From the NCBI GenBank assembly GCA_030538425.1, contig JAUNTZ010000026.1, positions 1-37,067 on the forward strand: a stretch of 37,067 bases of DNA, given 5' to 3'. The notes beneath the pieces were generated by a model that saw nothing but the letters and a program-made list of their open reading frames with translations, was not told the DNA's origin and did no database searches. Of this stretch, positions 14,920 to 21,339 are shown in pieces. Both the position numbers and the translations under genes were made by a program. The stretch is from Paracoccus sp. (in: a-proteobacteria) (GTDB taxonomy: Bacteria > Pseudomonadota > Alphaproteobacteria > Rhodobacterales > Rhodobacteraceae). Position 1 is the stretch's first letter; each line of letters starts with the position of its first letter.

Positions 14920-15162
14920 TCAATAGCTGCGCTGGCAGACGCCCACATCATCGCACAGCGCACCGGCACCCGCGCCGATCAGCGCGCCCTTGGCGGGGTC
15001 CTCCTTCAGCGCGCGGGCAATCAGCGCACCCGCCACGGCACCGCCTGCGGCGCGTTGCGCGTCGGGGGTGATGACTGAGCCGCCGTAAGGGCTGGGCTGG
15101 CAAGCGGCCAGAGCCGCGAGAGCGAAAGCCATGGCGGAAAGACGAAGAGCGGGTTTTTGCAT
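14920..15162 (-). CDS. Small glycine-zipper lipoprotein, 80 aa
   Basis: The protein is 80 aa; its ATG at 15162 has AAAGGA upstream. The signal peptide ends in the lipobox LAAC, so Cys21 would be lipidated. The mature part carries AAGGAVAGALIARALKEDP and GALIGAGAGAL, a glycine-zipper pattern, and ends CDDVGVCQRSY. Such small lipoproteins are usually outer-membrane or periplasmic and envelope-stress linked, but exact functions are unknown. A GCGTAA-type repeat 65-83 bases upstream matches the repeats before the two-component regulator and the hydrolase operon, so it probably belongs to that regulon. Confidence 0.85.
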   Translation of the reverse strand: MQKPALRLSAMAFALAALAACQPSPYGGSVITPDAQRAAGGAVAGALIARALKEDPAKGALIGAGAGALCDDVGVCQRSY

Positions 15163-15226
15163 GTTTACTGTCCTTTTGATGGGGCCGGTGCTGTGACCGG
15201 CATCAGGGGACAGATGCAGGGCAAGG

Positions 15227-15245
15227 CTTACGCCGGGATTACGCG
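15227..15245 (-). promoter_or_regulatory. Response-regulator box upstream of the lipoprotein gene
   Basis: On the coding strand it reads CGCGTAATCCCGGCGTAAG: two GCGTAA half-sites whose starts are 11 bp apart. It is 16/19 identical to the box before the response-regulator gene (17312-17330). An 11-bp period is typical of direct-repeat sites of OmpR/PhoB-class regulators. Assignment to the adjacent regulator is inference. Confidence 0.65.
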
Positions 15246-15282: not shown

Positions 15283-16599
15283 TCATCCCGAAACCGGCAG
15301 GCTGACCCGGAATGTCGCGCCGGGCGCGGCGTCAGCGACCACCACATCGCCGCCATGCGCCCGCGCAATGTCGCGCACCATTTTCAGGCCAAGCCCCGCG
15401 CCTGCGCCATGGGGGTTGCGGCGGAAGAAGGGCTCGAAGACGCGGGCGCGCTGAGGCTCGGGGATGCCGGGGCCTTGGTCCTGAACCTCGATCACGCCTG
15501 CGAGGCTCAGCCGCACGGTGATCGCGCCGCGCCCGCCGCCATGCTGCACCGCGTTCTGGATCAGGTTCACGACCATCCGGTCAAGCCCCGCGCGGTCGCC
15601 CTGAACCCAGACCGGCGCGTCGGGGCTGTCGAGCGACAGATCGTAGCCCTCGGCCAGCGCATAGGGCGCCAGATCGGCCACCGCATCGGACAGGACCGCG
15701 CGCAGATCAAGGCGCGTCAGGGTCAGGCCCGCCTGCCGGAAACGCTCAATCTCCAGCAATTGCCGGGCAAGGGCGGCAAGGCGGCGGGTGATCTGGCGCA
15801 GGCTTTCACGCTCGGCACTGGCAGGCAGGGCGTCAAGGCGCAGCTGGATGATCGCAATCGGGGTGCGCAGCTCATGCGCGGCGTTCATGAAGAACCGCTC
15901 GGTCGTCTCGAAGCCCGCATCCAGACGGCGCAGCGCCTCGTTCATGCCTTGGGCGAGCGGGACGATCTCACGCGGGAGGCCCTCGGTCGCCAGACGGCTG
16001 CCCCGGCTGTCATAGTCGATCCGCGCGACCTGCCGCGACAGGTCGGTGACGCGGCGCAGGCTGCGGCGGATGAAGGGCGGCACGCAAAGCAGGGTCAGCC
16101 CGATCAGCACCAGAGCGGGCACAAGCACGACGATATTCGCCAGAAAGATGCTGGCCCAGACATCGCTGATATAGCCGCCACCGCCTAGGATGATGGCCAT
16201 GTCGCCGATATGTTCGAACCGGGCGGTCAGGTGCGGGTCGGCATCCTCGCCGCGAATATCCATGACCTTGATGCGCGGTGCGTCGTCCATCATGGCCATC
16301 GCGAAGGGCGGCGGGGCGCCATGGGTCAGCCGAGCCTCCCCCGACTGGACGATGAACCACAGATCGGGCGAGGCATCCTGTATCCGCTGCAATTCCGCAT
16401 TCGGGGTCAGTATCAGCCCGCCCGCATCGCGCGCGGTTGACGCGGTGACCGCGCGGATCGCCTTTCCGCCGACGATCACACCCGAGGGTGAGGCATTGAA
16501 CACCAGCCCCACCGTCAGCGATGAGATCACCACAAAGATCAGGATTTGGAACAGGACCAGCCCGCGCGTGATCCGCCAGCGCAGCGAGGGCGCGCTCAT
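15283..16599 (-). CDS. Sensor histidine kinase
   Basis: The protein is 438 aa. There are two membrane segments (about 13-35 and 150-174) bounding a periplasmic sensor domain of about 115 residues, then a linker. The H-box is NAAHELRTPIAII with phospho-acceptor H242, and the ATPase part has NLIQNAVQHGG (346-356), DQGPGIP (374-380) and GAGAGLGL (398-405). Its start overlaps the response-regulator stop (16596-16599, ATGA), so the two form a coupled operon. The overall build resembles the QseC/TctE/PmrB group of kinases; the stimulus is unknown. Because the regulator's putative boxes precede an esterase operon, an envelope or ester-related signal is plausible. Confidence 0.93.
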   Translation of the reverse strand: MSAPSLRWRITRGLVLFQILIFVVISSLTVGLVFNASPSGVIVGGKAIRAVTASTARDAGGLILTPNAELQRIQDASPDLWFIVQSGEARLTHGAPPPFAMAMMDDAPRIKVMDIRGEDADPHLTARFEHIGDMAIILGGGGYISDVWASIFLANIVVLVPALVLIGLTLLCVPPFIRRSLRRVTDLSRQVARIDYDSRGSRLATEGLPREIVPLAQGMNEALRRLDAGFETTERFFMNAAHELRTPIAIIQLRLDALPASAERESLRQITRRLAALARQLLEIERFRQAGLTLTRLDLRAVLSDAVADLAPYALAEGYDLSLDSPDAPVWVQGDRAGLDRMVVNLIQNAVQHGGGRGAITVRLSLAGVIEVQDQGPGIPEPQRARVFEPFFRRNPHGAGAGLGLKMVRDIARAHGGDVVVADAAPGATFRVSLPVSG

Positions 16600-17273
16600 G
16601 CCCGGCCTGCATGGATGAAATAGCCGACGCCGCGCACATTATGGATCTCCACCCCTGCGCCTGCATCGGCCAGTTTCCGGCGCAGCCGCGACATATTCGC
16701 CTCAAGTGAGTTCGACTGGATCTCATCGTCGAACCCGTAAACCGCATCCTCCAGCGCCGATTTGACGACCGTGCGGCCGGGACGGCGCAAAAGCGTCTCA
16801 AGGATCAGCAATTCGCGCCGCGTCAGGTCGATCTTGGCGCCGCTGACGCGGACCTCGCGCGCATGGAGGTCATATTCCAGCGCGCCAAGGCGGATGGTTT
16901 CGGGCAGAACCTCGGGCGCGCGGCGCAGGACGGCGTTGATGCGGGCCAGAAGCTCGTCCAGCTCAAAGGGTTTGGGCAGGTAATCGTCGGCGCCGATATT
17001 CAGCCCGTCAATGCGCTGATGCGTCTCACCCAAGGCCGAGATCACGATTGACGGCACCGGGCGCGGGCGCGAACGCAGCAGCGGCACAAGGCTCAGCCCA
17101 TCGCCATCGGGCATCTGCCGGTCGATCAGCACGACGTCATGGACATTGTTCTCAAGCGCCTCGCGCGCGATCTCCAGACTGGGCGCGGTATCGACATTGA
17201 TGTTGTGACGCCGCAGGGCCGCGCCCAGGGCCTCGGCCATCTCGGGTTCGTCCTCAACAAGCAGCAATCGCAT
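16596..17273 (-). CDS. OmpR/PhoB-family response regulator (QseB/TctD-like)
   Basis: The protein is 225 aa from the ATG at 17273 (MRLLLVEDEP), with GGAGG six bases upstream; an earlier GTG at 17297 is less likely. The receiver domain (1-115) has acidic E7/D8, phospho-acceptor D51 (VLIDRQMP), S79 and K101 (LPKPFE). The C-terminal winged helix (about 125-222) has the usual RELLILETLLRRPG and SRLRRKL elements. It would be phosphorylated by the downstream kinase. A pair of GCGTAA half-sites 39-57 bases upstream suggests autoregulation, and an identical arrangement serves the divergent hydrolase operon. Confidence 0.94.
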   Translation of the reverse strand: MRLLLVEDEPEMAEALGAALRRHNINVDTAPSLEIAREALENNVHDVVLIDRQMPDGDGLSLVPLLRSRPRPVPSIVISALGETHQRIDGLNIGADDYLPKPFELDELLARINAVLRRAPEVLPETIRLGALEYDLHAREVRVSGAKIDLTRRELLILETLLRRPGRTVVKSALEDAVYGFDDEIQSNSLEANMSRLRRKLADAGAGVEIHNVRGVGYFIHAGRA

Positions 17274-17311
17274 CGGCGCCTCCGTTCTTTGGGTCACTCT
17301 GACGGGCCATC

Positions 17312-17373
17312 CTTACCGCAGGATTACGCGCGGCGGGAGGGAACCGGACGAAAAGGCGTAAGTTTCGCGTAAC
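17312..17373. promoter_or_regulatory. Two oppositely oriented response-regulator boxes in the divergent promoter
   Basis: Box 1 (17312-17330) reads on the minus strand CGCGTAATCCTGCGGTAAG, 39-57 bases before the regulator ATG. Box 2 (17355-17373) reads on the plus strand GGCGTAAGTTTCGCGTAAC, 40-58 bases before the first hydrolase ATG. Each is a pair of G(C/G)GTAA half-sites starting 11 bp apart, in the same orientation relative to its own gene. For the hydrolase operon a TATCAG-like -10 (about 17386) would lie one class-II distance downstream. The symmetry strongly suggests one regulator activating both directions. Confidence 0.7.
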
Positions 17374-17412
17374 AGTCGCGCCCTATCAGCGGGCAACCAT
17401 AACGAATCAAGG

Positions 17413-18378
17413 ATGACCCCATTGTTCCGTCTGACAGCCATTGCCGCTTTTGCCACCCTGTCGCTGATCCCCGCCGCGTCGAGCGCGCAAGGTATTGATT
17501 TCACGACTCATCATTACGCCACCAAGGACGGGCAGGATCTCTATCTGGACCTGATCGTCGATCCCTCGGCAGAGAGCGACGGCCCGCGCCCGGTGATCAT
17601 CTATTCCTTTGGCGGCGGTTGGGAAGAAGGCGACCGTGGCTCCGAGGACGACGCCGAAATGTGGGCGCCCTTCCTCTCCGAAGGCTATGCGGTGGTCGCC
17701 ATCGACTATCGGTTGGGCGTCCGCGATGCCAAGCAATCGGGCGAGTTTAACGATGAAAACGGCACCGAGATCTATCTGCGCGCGATTGAATGGGGGGTCG
17801 AGGATCTCTTCGACGCGACCCGCTTTGTCGTGGATCACGCGGATGAGTGGAACTTGAACGCCGATCAGATCGTGACCTTGGGCGGAAGCGCCGGGGCCAC
17901 AAATTCGCTGGTCGCGGAGTATCACGCGGCGAATGCCACCCCGCTGGCGCAGGCGCATCTGCCCGATGGGTTCCGCTATGCGGGCGTGATCTCGATGGCA
18001 GGCGCCTTCTGGCTGCCCGAAGGCACGCCGCTGGAATTCGCCGCGCGGCCTGCGCCGATCATGTTCTTTCACGGCGCGCAGGACTGGCTTGTGACCTATG
18101 ATGAGGTGCAGGGGGATTTCGCGGGCTATGGCCCGGCCTATTATGTCCGCGAATTCGCCGGGCCGGATTATCCGAAATGGTTCGTCGATTACCCGCAGGG
18201 CGACCACATGCTGGCCGCGCTGCCGATCATGACCCGCCAGCCCGAGATGCTGGCCTTTCTGGAGCGTCTGGCGATCGGGCGCGAGGAGCTGTCCATCCAC
18301 ACCATCGAGGAAGCGACCTTTCCCGCCTCTTTCGAGGGGCTGATGAAAAAGCTTGAGGCTGAGGGGCAGGACCGCTGA
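17413..18378 (+). CDS. Secreted alpha/beta hydrolase (carboxylesterase type)
   Basis: The protein is 321 aa, first gene of a four-hydrolase operon. A Sec signal peptide (residues 1 to about 25, ending SSAQG) exports it. The fold is that of carbohydrate- or lipid-acting esterases. The oxyanion motif is FGGGW (67-71, in place of HGGGW), the nucleophile elbow GGSAGA has S159, and the likely acid and base are D224 (HGAQDW) and H265 (QGDHML). The start is preceded by AAGGATG only, and the next in-frame Met is far inside. The substrate is unknown; exported location and HGGGW-type loop fit acyl-ester side chains of polymers or small esters. The two-component box 40-58 bases upstream suggests induced expression. 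Confidence 0.88.
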   Translation: MTPLFRLTAIAAFATLSLIPAASSAQGIDFTTHHYATKDGQDLYLDLIVDPSAESDGPRPVIIYSFGGGWEEGDRGSEDDAEMWAPFLSEGYAVVAIDYRLGVRDAKQSGEFNDENGTEIYLRAIEWGVEDLFDATRFVVDHADEWNLNADQIVTLGGSAGATNSLVAEYHAANATPLAQAHLPDGFRYAGVISMAGAFWLPEGTPLEFAARPAPIMFFHGAQDWLVTYDEVQGDFAGYGPAYYVREFAGPDYPKWFVDYPQGDHMLAALPIMTRQPEMLAFLERLAIGREELSIHTIEEATFPASFEGLMKKLEAEGQDR

Positions 18379-18379
18379 G

Positions 18380-19282
18380 ATGCTGAAACGGATCAAACTG
18401 GCGGCGCTGGGCGTGATGCTGGCGGGGCTTGCGGCCTGCGGCTGGACGCCCGCCCCCGATTACGCCGCGAAAGGCCCGGTTGAGATGTCCTTCATGGCGC
18501 GCGGCCCCTGGCAGGTCTCGCGCAGCAATAGCGGTGAGGCTTGCACAAGCAAGGGCCAAAGCTGCGAGATCTGGGCCCCCACCGGCCCTGCACCGGACAC
18601 CGCCCCCGGCTTGCGCGGCGGGCGTCACCCGGTGGTCGCATGGGCGAACGGCTCGGGCCAGATGCCCGAGGTTTACACGCAGTTTCTGGAGCATCTGGCC
18701 TCATGGGGCTTTGTCGTGATCGCGCCGCGCGACGACATGACCGGCAACGGCCAGACGGTTTTCGATGCCGCGCAATATATCATCCGGCAGGGCGATAACC
18801 CCGCCAGCCCGTTTCATGGCCGCATCGACCGCGACCGTATGGCGGCGCTTGGTCACTCGCAGGGCGCGTCCTCGGTCGCGGCGCTGCATGCGCGCAATGC
18901 GCCGCTGTTTCGCAGCTATATGGCCTATCACATCTCACCCGGCTGGTTCGCCCGCTGGTGCTGCGGCGTCGATCAGGCCAGCTATGCGGGACTGGTGCCG
19001 CGCGGCTCGATCTTTCACTGGAACAGTCAGGTCGATGGCGGCAATCCCGACTGGTATGAGGCCGTGGGCGGCCCCGCCCCCAAAGCCTTCGCCCTGCTGC
19101 GCCATGCCGGCCACGAGGCCATCGGCCCCCGCCCGCGCCCCTATCTGGGTTATTCGACCGCCTGGCTGATGTGGCAGTTGAACGGCGACCGCCGCGCCGC
19201 GGCCGCCTTTGCGCCGGGGGATGAGTTTTTCAATGAAAGCATCAGTTGGGCTGACAGCCGCGCCGCGCGCACCGGGCTTTGA
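18380..19282 (+). CDS. Lipoprotein alpha/beta hydrolase
   Basis: The protein is 300 aa from the ATG at 18380, one base after the stop of the preceding gene, with AGGA upstream. A lipobox (LAGLAAC, Cys20) indicates a membrane-anchored lipoprotein. The layout is that of the chlorophyllase/cutinase-like hydrolase group (PHA- and polyester-hydrolase relatives): VVAWANGSG as oxyanion region (86-93), nucleophile elbow GHSQGAS with S160, a late RHAGHEAIG His. The conserved CEIWAP and paired cysteines may make disulfides. Related enzymes act on short-chain esters and some polyesters; the actual substrate is unknown. Second gene of the operon. Confidence 0.86.
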   Translation: MLKRIKLAALGVMLAGLAACGWTPAPDYAAKGPVEMSFMARGPWQVSRSNSGEACTSKGQSCEIWAPTGPAPDTAPGLRGGRHPVVAWANGSGQMPEVYTQFLEHLASWGFVVIAPRDDMTGNGQTVFDAAQYIIRQGDNPASPFHGRIDRDRMAALGHSQGASSVAALHARNAPLFRSYMAYHISPGWFARWCCGVDQASYAGLVPRGSIFHWNSQVDGGNPDWYEAVGGPAPKAFALLRHAGHEAIGPRPRPYLGYSTAWLMWQLNGDRRAAAAFAPGDEFFNESISWADSRAARTGL

Positions 19283-19299
19283 CCGCGAAAGGAGATATG

Positions 19300-20181
19300 A
19301 TGAAAACGCCAATTCTTGCCCTTGCCGCCTGCCTTCTGGCGATGGCGACCCACGCCACAGCCGCGCCGCAAATCGCGGATGCCATACCGCTTTACGGCGC
19401 GGACAATCCCGGCAGCCCGGATGACGAGATGCTGACCGGATCGGGCCGCGATCTGCGCAACGTCACCTATCCGACGCTGACGCCGGTTCTGCCCGCGCCC
19501 GGCACCGCCAACGGCGCGGCGGTGATCGTGGCACCGGGTGGCGGCTTTTTGTTCCTGTCAATGGACAGCGAGGGTTTGGATGTGGCGCAAGCATTGGCCG
19601 ATCAGGGCGTGACGGGTTTTGTGCTGAAATACCGGCTCAACCCGACGCCTGCGGACCAAGGGGCCTATGCGCGGGAGCTGTTCAGCGTGATTTTGGGCGC
19701 AAGCGGCATCGGTCCCGCGCCGGATCTGGACCCGGCCGAGGCCCGCGATGATGCCACTGCGGCGATTGATCTGCTGCGCAACCGGGCCGAGGACTGGGAG
19801 ATCGACCCGGAACGCGTGGGCATTATCGGCTTTTCCGCCGGGGCGATTGCGGCGCGGGATGCGGTGCTGCATGGCGCCTCGCCTGATTTTCTGGGCCTGA
19901 TCTATGGCCCGATGGAGGCGGTCGAGGTGCCCGAGGGCGCGCCTCCGCTTTTCACCGCTTTGGCCATGGATGACGGCATGTTCAGCCGTGGCGATTTCGG
20001 GCTGGCCACCGCCTGGCGCGACGCCGGGCGCCCGGTCGAGCTGCATGTCTATCAAAGCGGCGGCCACGGATTCGGCCTTGGCAAACCGGGCGAAACGAAC
20101 GCCCTGCTGATACCGCAATTTATGGCTTGGCTGGAGATGCAGGGCTTTGTGCCCGGTGACGATGCCCTACAGCCAGAATAA
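19300..20181 (+). CDS. Exported alpha/beta hydrolase (acetyl/xylan-esterase-like)
   Basis: The protein is 293 aa from the ATG at 19300, with AAAGGAG upstream; a tandem ATG at 19297 is possible. The signal peptide ends near THATAAPQ. The oxyanion loop is VAPGGGFLF (77-85), the nucleophile elbow GFSAGA has S179, the acid is likely the D of AMDDGMF and the base the H of GGHGFG. The pattern matches the esterase group often annotated as acetyl esterase, or as esterase fused to xylanases, which removes acetyl groups from sugars. Third gene of the operon, 17 bases after the second. The substrate is inferred only at family level. Confidence 0.86.
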   Translation: MKTPILALAACLLAMATHATAAPQIADAIPLYGADNPGSPDDEMLTGSGRDLRNVTYPTLTPVLPAPGTANGAAVIVAPGGGFLFLSMDSEGLDVAQALADQGVTGFVLKYRLNPTPADQGAYARELFSVILGASGIGPAPDLDPAEARDDATAAIDLLRNRAEDWEIDPERVGIIGFSAGAIAARDAVLHGASPDFLGLIYGPMEAVEVPEGAPPLFTALAMDDGMFSRGDFGLATAWRDAGRPVELHVYQSGGHGFGLGKPGETNALLIPQFMAWLEMQGFVPGDDALQPE

Positions 20182-20193
20182 GAAAGGAAAGCC

Positions 20194-21339
20194 ATGACAA
20201 CCGGAAACCCCCTGCGCACAACCCGCCGCCTGCTTGGCCGCAGCGCGAAAATCATCGCCTTCGCCACGCTTGCCGTTGTCGCTCTGGTCGCTCTGGCGGG
20301 GTTCCTCTGGATCAGGTCGGTGCAGGAGAGCTTTCCCGAACTGACGGGCTCGCCTGAGATCGGGACATGGTATGGCATCTACCCCGAAGGCGCGCGCTCG
20401 GCCCTGGGTGAGCCCTATCACGGCATCTTCAGACGCGGTTCGTCGAATAATGTGATGGTGCTGTTCAATGGCGGCGGTGCCGCTGTGGATGCTCAGACCG
20501 CCTCTGGCCCGGATCGCGCCTTCAACACGGATACGGGCGGCGATGTTCTGGCCCGGCTTGGCCTTGGCAGCGACGATGCTGCCAACCCTTTCGCCGATTG
20601 GACCGTCATTAACCTGCCCTACACGACCGGAGATTTCCACATCGGTGCGGGGGATTTCACCTTTCAGAACGCCGATGGTGAGACCGAGACGCTCCACCAT
20701 AACGGCTTCCTGAATTTTGATCTGGTGATGGCAGAGATCATGCCGCATCTGCCCGCGCCCGAGCGCCTGCTGATCTCGGGCTATTCGGCTGGAGGCTTTG
20801 CCGCCGCTCTGATGGCCGATCACGTCATGGGCTATTTTCCCGAGACGAGTGATGTGACCGTCGCGGTGGACAGCGCGCTGTTGCTCAACGACGACTGGCA
20901 CGGCATCGCTGCGAATATCTGGCAGCCACCGGCTGAGATCACCCGGCAGATCACCGGCGATAACCTGACGTTGGACGCACTGACGGCGCTTGCGGCGGAT
21001 CATCCGCAGGTGAAGGTGCTGTTCCTGTCCTCAATCCGCGACGATGCGCTGGTCGAGGTGCAGGAATATTTCGACACCGGCACCATGCGCAAGACCTCTG
21101 CGGGCGGCGATGCTTATGAGGCGGCTTTGGCCGATTTCGTGCGAGCCCTGCGCGCGGCGGTGCCGAATACGGCGTTCTACATCTTCGATACCGAACGGAG
21201 CGAGGAAAACCTGACCTTTCACACCGCGCTGCTGCTGTTCTCCTTCACCGAGGGTCTGGCGCCGATCACCCCCGCGCAATGGATTGCAAATGCGGTGAAC
21301 GGCCAGATTGAGGATGTCGGGCTGGACTTGCTGCCTTAA
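20194..21339 (+). CDS. Membrane-anchored pectinacetylesterase-like hydrolase
   Basis: The protein is 381 aa, the fourth and last hydrolase of the operon, 12 bases after the third, with AAAGGAAA as ribosome site. An uncleaved-looking N-terminal membrane segment (residues 20-40) with a positive flank anchors it facing the periplasm. The text is that of the pectinacetylesterase/Notum superfamily: VLFNGGGA oxyanion loop (89-96), LPYTTGDFHIG (141-151, usual PYCTGD-x-H-x-G), GFLNFDLVMAEI, and nucleophile elbow GYSAGG with S198. Known relatives deacetylate pectin or deacylate palmitoleoylated protein. It is divergent in fold detail from the three upstream hydrolases, so the operon joins different esterase families rather than duplicates. 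Confidence 0.86.
   Translation: MTTGNPLRTTRRLLGRSAKIIAFATLAVVALVALAGFLWIRSVQESFPELTGSPEIGTWYGIYPEGARSALGEPYHGIFRRGSSNNVMVLFNGGGAAVDAQTASGPDRAFNTDTGGDVLARLGLGSDDAANPFADWTVINLPYTTGDFHIGAGDFTFQNADGETETLHHNGFLNFDLVMAEIMPHLPAPERLLISGYSAGGFAAALMADHVMGYFPETSDVTVAVDSALLLNDDWHGIAANIWQPPAEITRQITGDNLTLDALTALAADHPQVKVLFLSSIRDDALVEVQEYFDTGTMRKTSAGGDAYEAALADFVRALRAAVPNTAFYIFDTERSEENLTFHTALLLFSFTEGLAPITPAQWIANAVNGQIEDVGLDLLP

Follow-up and report, generated by a model that had tools for sequence, protein, structure and literature searches.

The stretch of DNA analysed here, hereafter the window, is one whole contig of 37,067 nucleotides from a draft genome (G000) of 2.69 Mb and 86.6% completeness. At the locus under study a two-component system is encoded on the minus strand. 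It comprises a response regulator of the OmpR/PhoB class (16596..17273), whose Response_reg and Trans_reg_C domains both score above the cut-off and whose recognition helix reads SNSLEANMSRLR, and a sensor histidine kinase of 438 amino acids (15283..16599) with HisKA and HATPase_c domains; Pfam gave no match for the N-terminal sensor (periplasmic) region of the kinase. On the same strand lies the gene of a small YMGG-like glycine-zipper protein of 80 amino acids (14920..15162), which exceeds the PF13441 cut-off by little (29.1 bits vs 28.9) and in which a lipoprotein signal was recognized by eye.

A divergent operon of four hydrolase genes occupies the plus strand. Esterase 1 (17413..18378) is a BD-FAE-like alpha/beta hydrolase (PF20434, 7.6e-19) with a signal peptide and a GGSAG motif; esterase 2 (18380..19282) is chlorophyllase/PETase-like (PF07224, 6.1e-08; PDB 2fx5, 1.4e-20) with a lipoprotein signal and GHSQG; esterase 3 (19279..20181), of the Abhydrolase_3 type, gives matches to AxeA1 and PaeX below the cut-off and contains GFSAG; esterase 4 (20194..21339) belongs to the pectinacetylesterase family (PF03283, 2.5e-12) and has an N-terminal membrane anchor and GYSAG. 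Signals and motifs were assigned by eye, which gives a GxSxG nucleophile motif in 4/4 hydrolases and an export signal in the first three. By sequence, the nearest solved structures of esterases 1-3 are esterases, lipases and PETase-like enzymes, one structure match of esterase 3 being named a xylanase; for esterase 4 there was no solved-structure match by sequence.

Three boxes at the locus and in one orthologous genome

Three of these genes are each preceded by a box made of two direct half-sites. Box 1 (CGCGTAATCCCGGCGTAAG; 15227..15245, minus strand) lies ahead of the lipoprotein gene and box 3 (GGCGTAAGTTTCGCGTAAC; 17355..17373, plus strand) ahead of esterase 1, and both have the form GCGTAA-N5-GCGTAA (12/12). 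Box 2 (CGCGTAATCCTGCGGTAAG; 17312..17330, minus strand), ahead of the response regulator, is GCGTAA-N5-CGGTAA (10/12) and therefore has two mismatches to that form. The sequence-only reading had placed the boxes at these coordinates, with this orientation and spacing, and we found all of this in the sequence. As it had also claimed, boxes 1 and 2 agree at 16/19 positions and all three have the same relative orientation, every box reading toward the gene downstream of it. The gap to the start codon is 38 bases for box 2 and the response regulator, 39 for box 3 and esterase 1, and 64 for box 1 and the lipoprotein; the promoters of the response regulator and esterase 1 stand back to back within 139 bp. 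Two direct half-sites with an 11-bp period, as found here, define a direct-repeat box of the OmpR/PhoB class.

Allowing up to two mismatches, GCGTAA-N5-GCGTAA has 6 matches in the window vs 1.66 expected, and 2/100 shuffles reach 6. The exact form has only two sites in all of G000, boxes 1 and 3, both in this locus. At 11 bp behind each box we observed a candidate -10 element: CATCTG behind box 1 (15211..15216, minus strand; weak, 2/6), CAGAGT behind box 2 (17296..17301, minus strand; weak, 3/6) and TATCAG behind box 3 (17384..17389, plus strand; 4/6).

Among the 125 same-genus genomes searched, one (G009) holds the sole close ortholog found (locus L126); matches to the response regulator at E <= 1e-60 occur in 8/125, the window's own included. 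Identity to G009 is 86% for the response regulator, 84% for the lipoprotein, 63% for the kinase and 76-86% for the esterases. In the G009 esterase 4 (L126:13142-13819), similarity is confined to the first 198 residues; the frame stops after 225 amino acids and the gene looks disrupted. Boxes are present in G009 at all three places, namely CCGTAATGTCCGCGTAA before the lipoprotein gene (11/12), GTGTAACGCTCCGGTAA at -59 before the response regulator (9/12) and ACGTAAGGTTGGCGTAA toward esterase 1 (11/12). In the intergenic alignments of the two genomes, the boxes and the TAT (esterase) or CAT (lipoprotein) that follows them are among the conserved stretches, and at the offsets of the candidate -10 elements L126 has CATCAG behind the lipoprotein box and TATCGC behind the esterase box. 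Conservation upstream of orthologous genes, on which the earlier proposal had been made to depend, was thus found in the one full ortholog available, that of G009.

The esterase operon has a narrow distribution. Esterase 2 occurs in 2/125 genomes of the genus, the window's own included, and esterase 1 in 1/394 genomes of the family, namely the window's own, G009 being absent from that sample; plasmid searches with esterases 2 and 4 gave distant matches only, the best being 33% and 37% identical. Since the operon is found in two genomes only, its link with the box is supported by a single pair of orthologs. Such rarity is what would be seen if the esterase operon were a passenger, with a box 3 that arose by chance or serves only the two-component system. 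However, box 3 matches at 12/12, faces esterase 1, is followed by the closest -10 match among the three boxes and is conserved together with its TAT in G009, which makes a passenger operon quite unlikely in our opinion.

The box in relatives of the response regulator

The comparison was extended to 36 response regulator loci, 45-86% identical, which were collected with their surroundings by tblastn against plasmids and by genome searches. They come from plasmids of Agrobacterium, Rhizobium, Sinorhizobium/Ensifer, Shinella, Devosia, Phyllobacterium, Caulobacter, Methylocystis and Methylosinus and from genomes that include a Devosia-labelled draft. The loci were picked for spread from longer lists (for example, 60 listed of 142 plasmid records), and in the wide searches scoring was limited to the 7 or 23 best candidates of each genome, so that relatives may be missed.

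A box matching GCGYAA-N5-GCGYAA at 11/12 or better is present in the scanned flanks of 21/37 loci (the window and 20/36 relatives), and 16/37 have none. Nine of these 16 boxless loci fall in one clade of 10 rows (support 99/97), several being of the window's genus; the only match of that clade, in L133, is doubtful, with a second half-site without A at position 5 and a -10 score of 1/6. In eight relatives (L039, L127, L130, L135, L169, L170, L181 and L182) the box lies 51-64 bp ahead of the start of the response regulator, and degenerate copies (8-10/12) are found at -59 to -70 in L140, L142, L144, L171, L173 and L177. The autoregulatory boxes of the relatives mostly have the C form.

To measure the period we used 29 loci with 60.5 kb of flank, leaving out the window, the G009 ortholog and the near duplicates L134, L138, L141, L144, L171 and L185. 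GCGYAA repeats with period 11 gave 23 hits in 16/58 segments, vs 0-4 hits for each of the other periods from 7 to 22; 200 dinucleotide shuffles of the flanks gave a mean of 2.41 and a maximum of 7. Within the 200 bp before the response regulator, period 11 gave 11 hits in 9/29 loci and the other periods 0-1, for a shuffle mean of 0.18 and a maximum of 2. When all 4096 hexamers were scored as 11-bp direct repeats, GCAATG and CGCAAT came out on top (9/29 and 8/29 loci, one mismatch). GCGTAA as stated beforehand is found in 1/29 of these promoters at one mismatch and in 6/29 at two; the GCGYAA form was picked after the relatives had been seen, a choice against which the hexamer enumeration guards only in part. 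At the same threshold, the 200 bp before control response regulators contained a box in 0/27 cases for regulators 37-47% identical from related genomes, and in 1/79 for a second set taken from genome contigs; the matches listed in that contig search were mostly distant regulators; L039, a good relative, was set apart and 79 were left as controls. The sole control with a box is L105 (Variovorax, 38%), where it is T-type and points away from the response regulator. The comparison of sequences thus shows the box to be conserved with its period and its position. That the repeats are due to chance would agree with genome-wide counts at or below control (see below), but the period-11 counts in relatives, the hexamer enumeration and the control regulators make it extremely improbable.

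Some loci showed additional arrangements. In L169 (about 1.54 kb before the response regulator) and L181 (-64, -53 before it), three consecutive half-sites follow each other at 11-bp steps, which suggests that more than one dimer may bind; overlapping matches on the opposite strand are also present in L169 and L170. L178 (Caulobacter rhizosphaerae plasmid) has a mixed minus-strand box, GCGTAAT/GCGCAAT (12/12), some 2.86 kb behind the response regulator start; a gene with a YcgJ family annotation follows it after about 300 bp. In L184:1-6000 (Methylosinus sp. C49 plasmid pMSC49c), the response regulator is 45% identical and has a T-type box (11/12) at -123; methanobactin genes (mbnABC) and TonB receptors are close to this distantly related two-component system.

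We also aligned 34 boxes, among which are some close to the response regulator with as few as 9/12 matches and some with no known gene behind them. The mean match to TATAAT is highest at 28 bases from the box start, that is 11 bp behind the box (2.32 vs a mean of 1.31), a value reached by 0/2000 rotations; smaller maxima stand at offsets 25 (2.06) and 30 (1.85). Without the window and G009, the 28 remaining boxes give a peak of 2.18, reached by 1/2000 rotations; a preferred spacing is shown by this comparison. With 11 bp between box and -10, the -35 would fall inside the box. Since the box covers the expected -35 and a weak -10 stands most often 11 bp behind it, a dimer bound over the -35 would most likely stand in for a good -35 in recruiting RNA polymerase, as does PhoB, which takes over the role of the -35 at its promoters. 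True sites of the response regulator could instead mediate repression, or activation at some promoters and repression at others: a box over the expected -35 could also seat a repressor, the -10 elements are poor, matching at 0-4 of 6 positions, and the promoters of the response regulator and esterase 1 are back to back in 139 bp. The preferred distance between box and -10 fits, however, with PhoB-type activation, and we regard a repressing or dual-acting response regulator as unlikely.

Recognition helix and the fourth base of the half-site

Base 4 of the half-site differs between groups of relatives and follows the recognition helix. Response regulators with LE-x-N in this helix (9 loci, near duplicates included) have T at position 4 in 22/22 letters. 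For those with LD-x-H, C accounts for 37/40 letters; T appears twice, in the mixed boxes of L181 and L182, and G once. Fisher's test gives p = 1e-14 by letters, which are not independent and from which the G was set aside, and p = 6e-6 by loci, with mixed loci counted as C-type. In the receiver-domain tree a single T/C change suffices (support 98/97), so that the association amounts to one evolutionary event. Both forms are held by G009 as paralogs, L126 being T-type and L127 C-type, and their presence in one genome strengthens the association.

Residues 1-220 of the response regulator align with BasR (PDB 8jo2/4s04). In this alignment the N/H position falls at His193 of KpPmrA and the E/D position at Glu191, in a numbering derived from residues named in PMC3973317 and PMC4660055; the former presents His193 and His195 of KpPmrA as likely determinants of base specificity. 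PmrA has Glu together with His (BasR sequence) and a box core TAA, so that it may be Glu/Asp that follows base 4.

The boxes might be bound by another regulator, the two-component system being merely one of its targets. This seems very unlikely from the sequences, because the boxes accompany the response regulator subfamily across families and plasmids, because the control regulators are mostly without them and because base 4 tracks the helix of the response regulator, even between the G009 paralogs L126 and L127. Sequence comparison in this way ties the box to one response regulator subfamily. The proposal that the boxes are regulatory 11-bp direct repeats belonging to the adjacent OmpR/PhoB-class response regulator is very probably right, given the period-11 counts in relatives, the controls and the link between helix and base.

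Apparently local regulon, changing cargo and known systems

The sequence-only reading had also offered the boxes as the mark of a candidate regulon, to be doubted if the motif occurred at random frequency. Genome-wide, GCGTAA-N5-GCGTAA is indeed at or below its reversed control: G000 has 8 sites vs 15 for the reversed pattern at up to one mismatch and 151 vs 333 at up to two, and G009 has 215 vs 596 at up to two. A wide regulon is therefore not supported, the motif being no commoner than the reversed control in either genome. Support for the boxes is local and comparative, and of the proposed regulon the link between response regulator, lipoprotein and esterase operon is supported. The longer string GCGTAA-N5-GCGTAA-N11-YAT, whose counts stay near those of its control, has 7 sites in G000 vs 4 for the control, with no mismatch only at the lipoprotein and esterase promoters and two mismatches at the other five. 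In G009 it has 13 sites vs 11, and the best three, with one mismatch, are the two orthologous promoters and a site inside ORFs. The sole exact GCGTAA-N5-GCGTAA of G009 (L147) is outside this locus, within an ORF of 308 amino acids.

We examined 29 loci of extra sites in the two genomes, some of which cover the same site and one of which (L201) is a nearby site and not the listed one. Most of these sites are inside ORFs, a weak kind of evidence in GC-rich DNA. Four may precede a gene and be true sites: L005 and L006 in G000, L148 and L155 in G009. The ORFs behind them match, in this order, FAA_hydrolase, an Mrp/ApbC-type ATPase, an AAA_31/CbiA (ParA-type) ATPase and an ANTAR-domain regulator; these are unrelated genes, with no envelope gene among them and no overlap between the two genomes. 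The regulon of the box thus appears to be local.

The genes directly behind the boxes vary from one relative to another. Glycine-zipper proteins, above the Pfam cut-off or closely similar, are found in the window, G009, L141 and L142, and below the cut-off in L136; outer-membrane barrels (PF13505) in L137, L138, L140, L144 and L039; HlyD-type efflux adaptors (PF16576/PF13437) in L127, L130 and L135. In L139 the box is followed by a small protein with a lipoprotein-like start, for which Pfam gave no match. Weaker T-type boxes (9-10/12) stand before a second glycine-zipper gene in L136 and L137; in L142 and L171 they precede the efflux adaptor, and in L139 a gene annotated as beta-lactamase. Before the response regulator of L136, L137 and L139, and before the EF-hand gene of L136, the best scores were 7-9 and no comparable box was found. 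What this cargo has in common is the cell envelope: the signalling cassette and its box recur across Alphaproteobacteria and the envelope cargo changes. An ester- or envelope-related signal had been suggested for the system; the former is too narrow for the family, and the latter fits better since the boxes of relatives precede glycine-zipper, outer-membrane barrel and efflux-adaptor genes.

These observations lead us to propose the following mechanism. The kinase would sense an envelope-located signal through its periplasmic region and phosphorylate the response regulator. A phosphorylated dimer would then bind the box head-to-tail, with one DNA-binding domain per half-site (GCGTAA, or GCGCAAT in sister systems), the 11-bp period placing both domains on the same face of the helix. 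Through box 2, a proposed autoregulatory site, the response regulator would switch on its own two-component operon, and through the other boxes the glycine-zipper lipoprotein and the divergent operon of four exported esterases. In this scheme, we infer the binding of the response regulator, activation rather than repression, an envelope-derived signal and the substrate of the esterases. Judging from the sequences, it is highly probable that the boxes are sites for a dimer of the adjacent response regulator, which would activate its own operon, the lipoprotein and the esterases.

More tentatively, and as a reading that has nearly as much for it as against it, the helix pair may set base 4 throughout this alphaproteobacterial subfamily (Glu..Asn for T, Asp..His for C), so that co-resident paralogs would be insulated from each other, cargo could be swapped freely, and specificity and box would have moved in one step. 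The clade concerned would be spread over at least three bacterial families, with esterases, glycine-zipper lipoproteins, outer-membrane barrels and RND/MacB efflux as cargo.

The site and the regulator are of a known kind. Like PmrA (BasR), the window's system combines an OmpR/PhoB-class response regulator with two hexamer half-sites and a 5-bp gap; for PmrA of Klebsiella/Salmonella, PMC3973317 and PMC4660055 describe two hexamers 5 bp apart (CTTAAT/CCTAAG) and head-to-tail binding. Unlike PmrA, the half-site is GCGTAA (GCGCAAT in sisters) and not of the CTTAA type, only the TAA core being common, and the response regulator has Asn where KpPmrA has His193. The targets differ too: antibiotic-resistance genes for PmrA, according to PMC4660055, and esterases and a glycine-zipper protein behind the boxes of the window. 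The response regulator stays below the cut-offs of the equivalog models for PmrA (NF007928, 154 bits vs 330), TctD (NF012023, 168 vs 337), QseB (NF007663, 125 vs 345) and PhoB (TIGR02154, 147 vs 296), and assignment to any of these four was rejected on that ground. TctD (Pseudomonas, Salmonella) is its best NCBIfam match, though below cut-off; it has a small regulon that includes its own gene, as stated in PMC4513871, and a small regulon with the regulator's own gene is also what we propose here. Unlike with TctD, no tricarboxylate transporter was seen among the annotated neighbours in 24 plasmid stretches (5/24 without annotation). The pho box of P. aeruginosa, which PMC4513871 gives as two (T)GTCAT boxes separated by 5 nt, is likewise an 11-bp direct repeat, with another half-site sequence.

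The same cassette is found on the At plasmid of Agrobacterium fabrum C58 (L142; ATU_RS24755-24765), with a YMGG glycine-zipper gene, a response regulator 57% identical and a kinase 42% identical. As in the window, a T-type box precedes the glycine-zipper gene; an efflux adaptor and a MacB pump then follow in place of esterases, and this pair has a second weak box before it. A virB-type type IV secretion cluster precedes the cassette by about 1 kb. No paper on this C58 system was found under four guessed old locus tags, and no description of the GCGTAA/GCGCAAT box and its response regulator subfamily was found in the titles and abstracts among the literature matches listed; the half-site was thus not found described.

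The box provides a concrete, cheaply testable binding-site candidate for a response regulator subfamily with boxes on plasmids of Agrobacterium, Rhizobium, Sinorhizobium/Ensifer, Shinella and Devosia, and candidate targets of a number of unstudied sensor systems can be predicted from it. In the window's own system, four different exported esterases would be tied to one signal. Finally, the association of base and helix in the G009 paralogs would constitute a natural experiment on how OmpR-type regulators avoid cross-talk.
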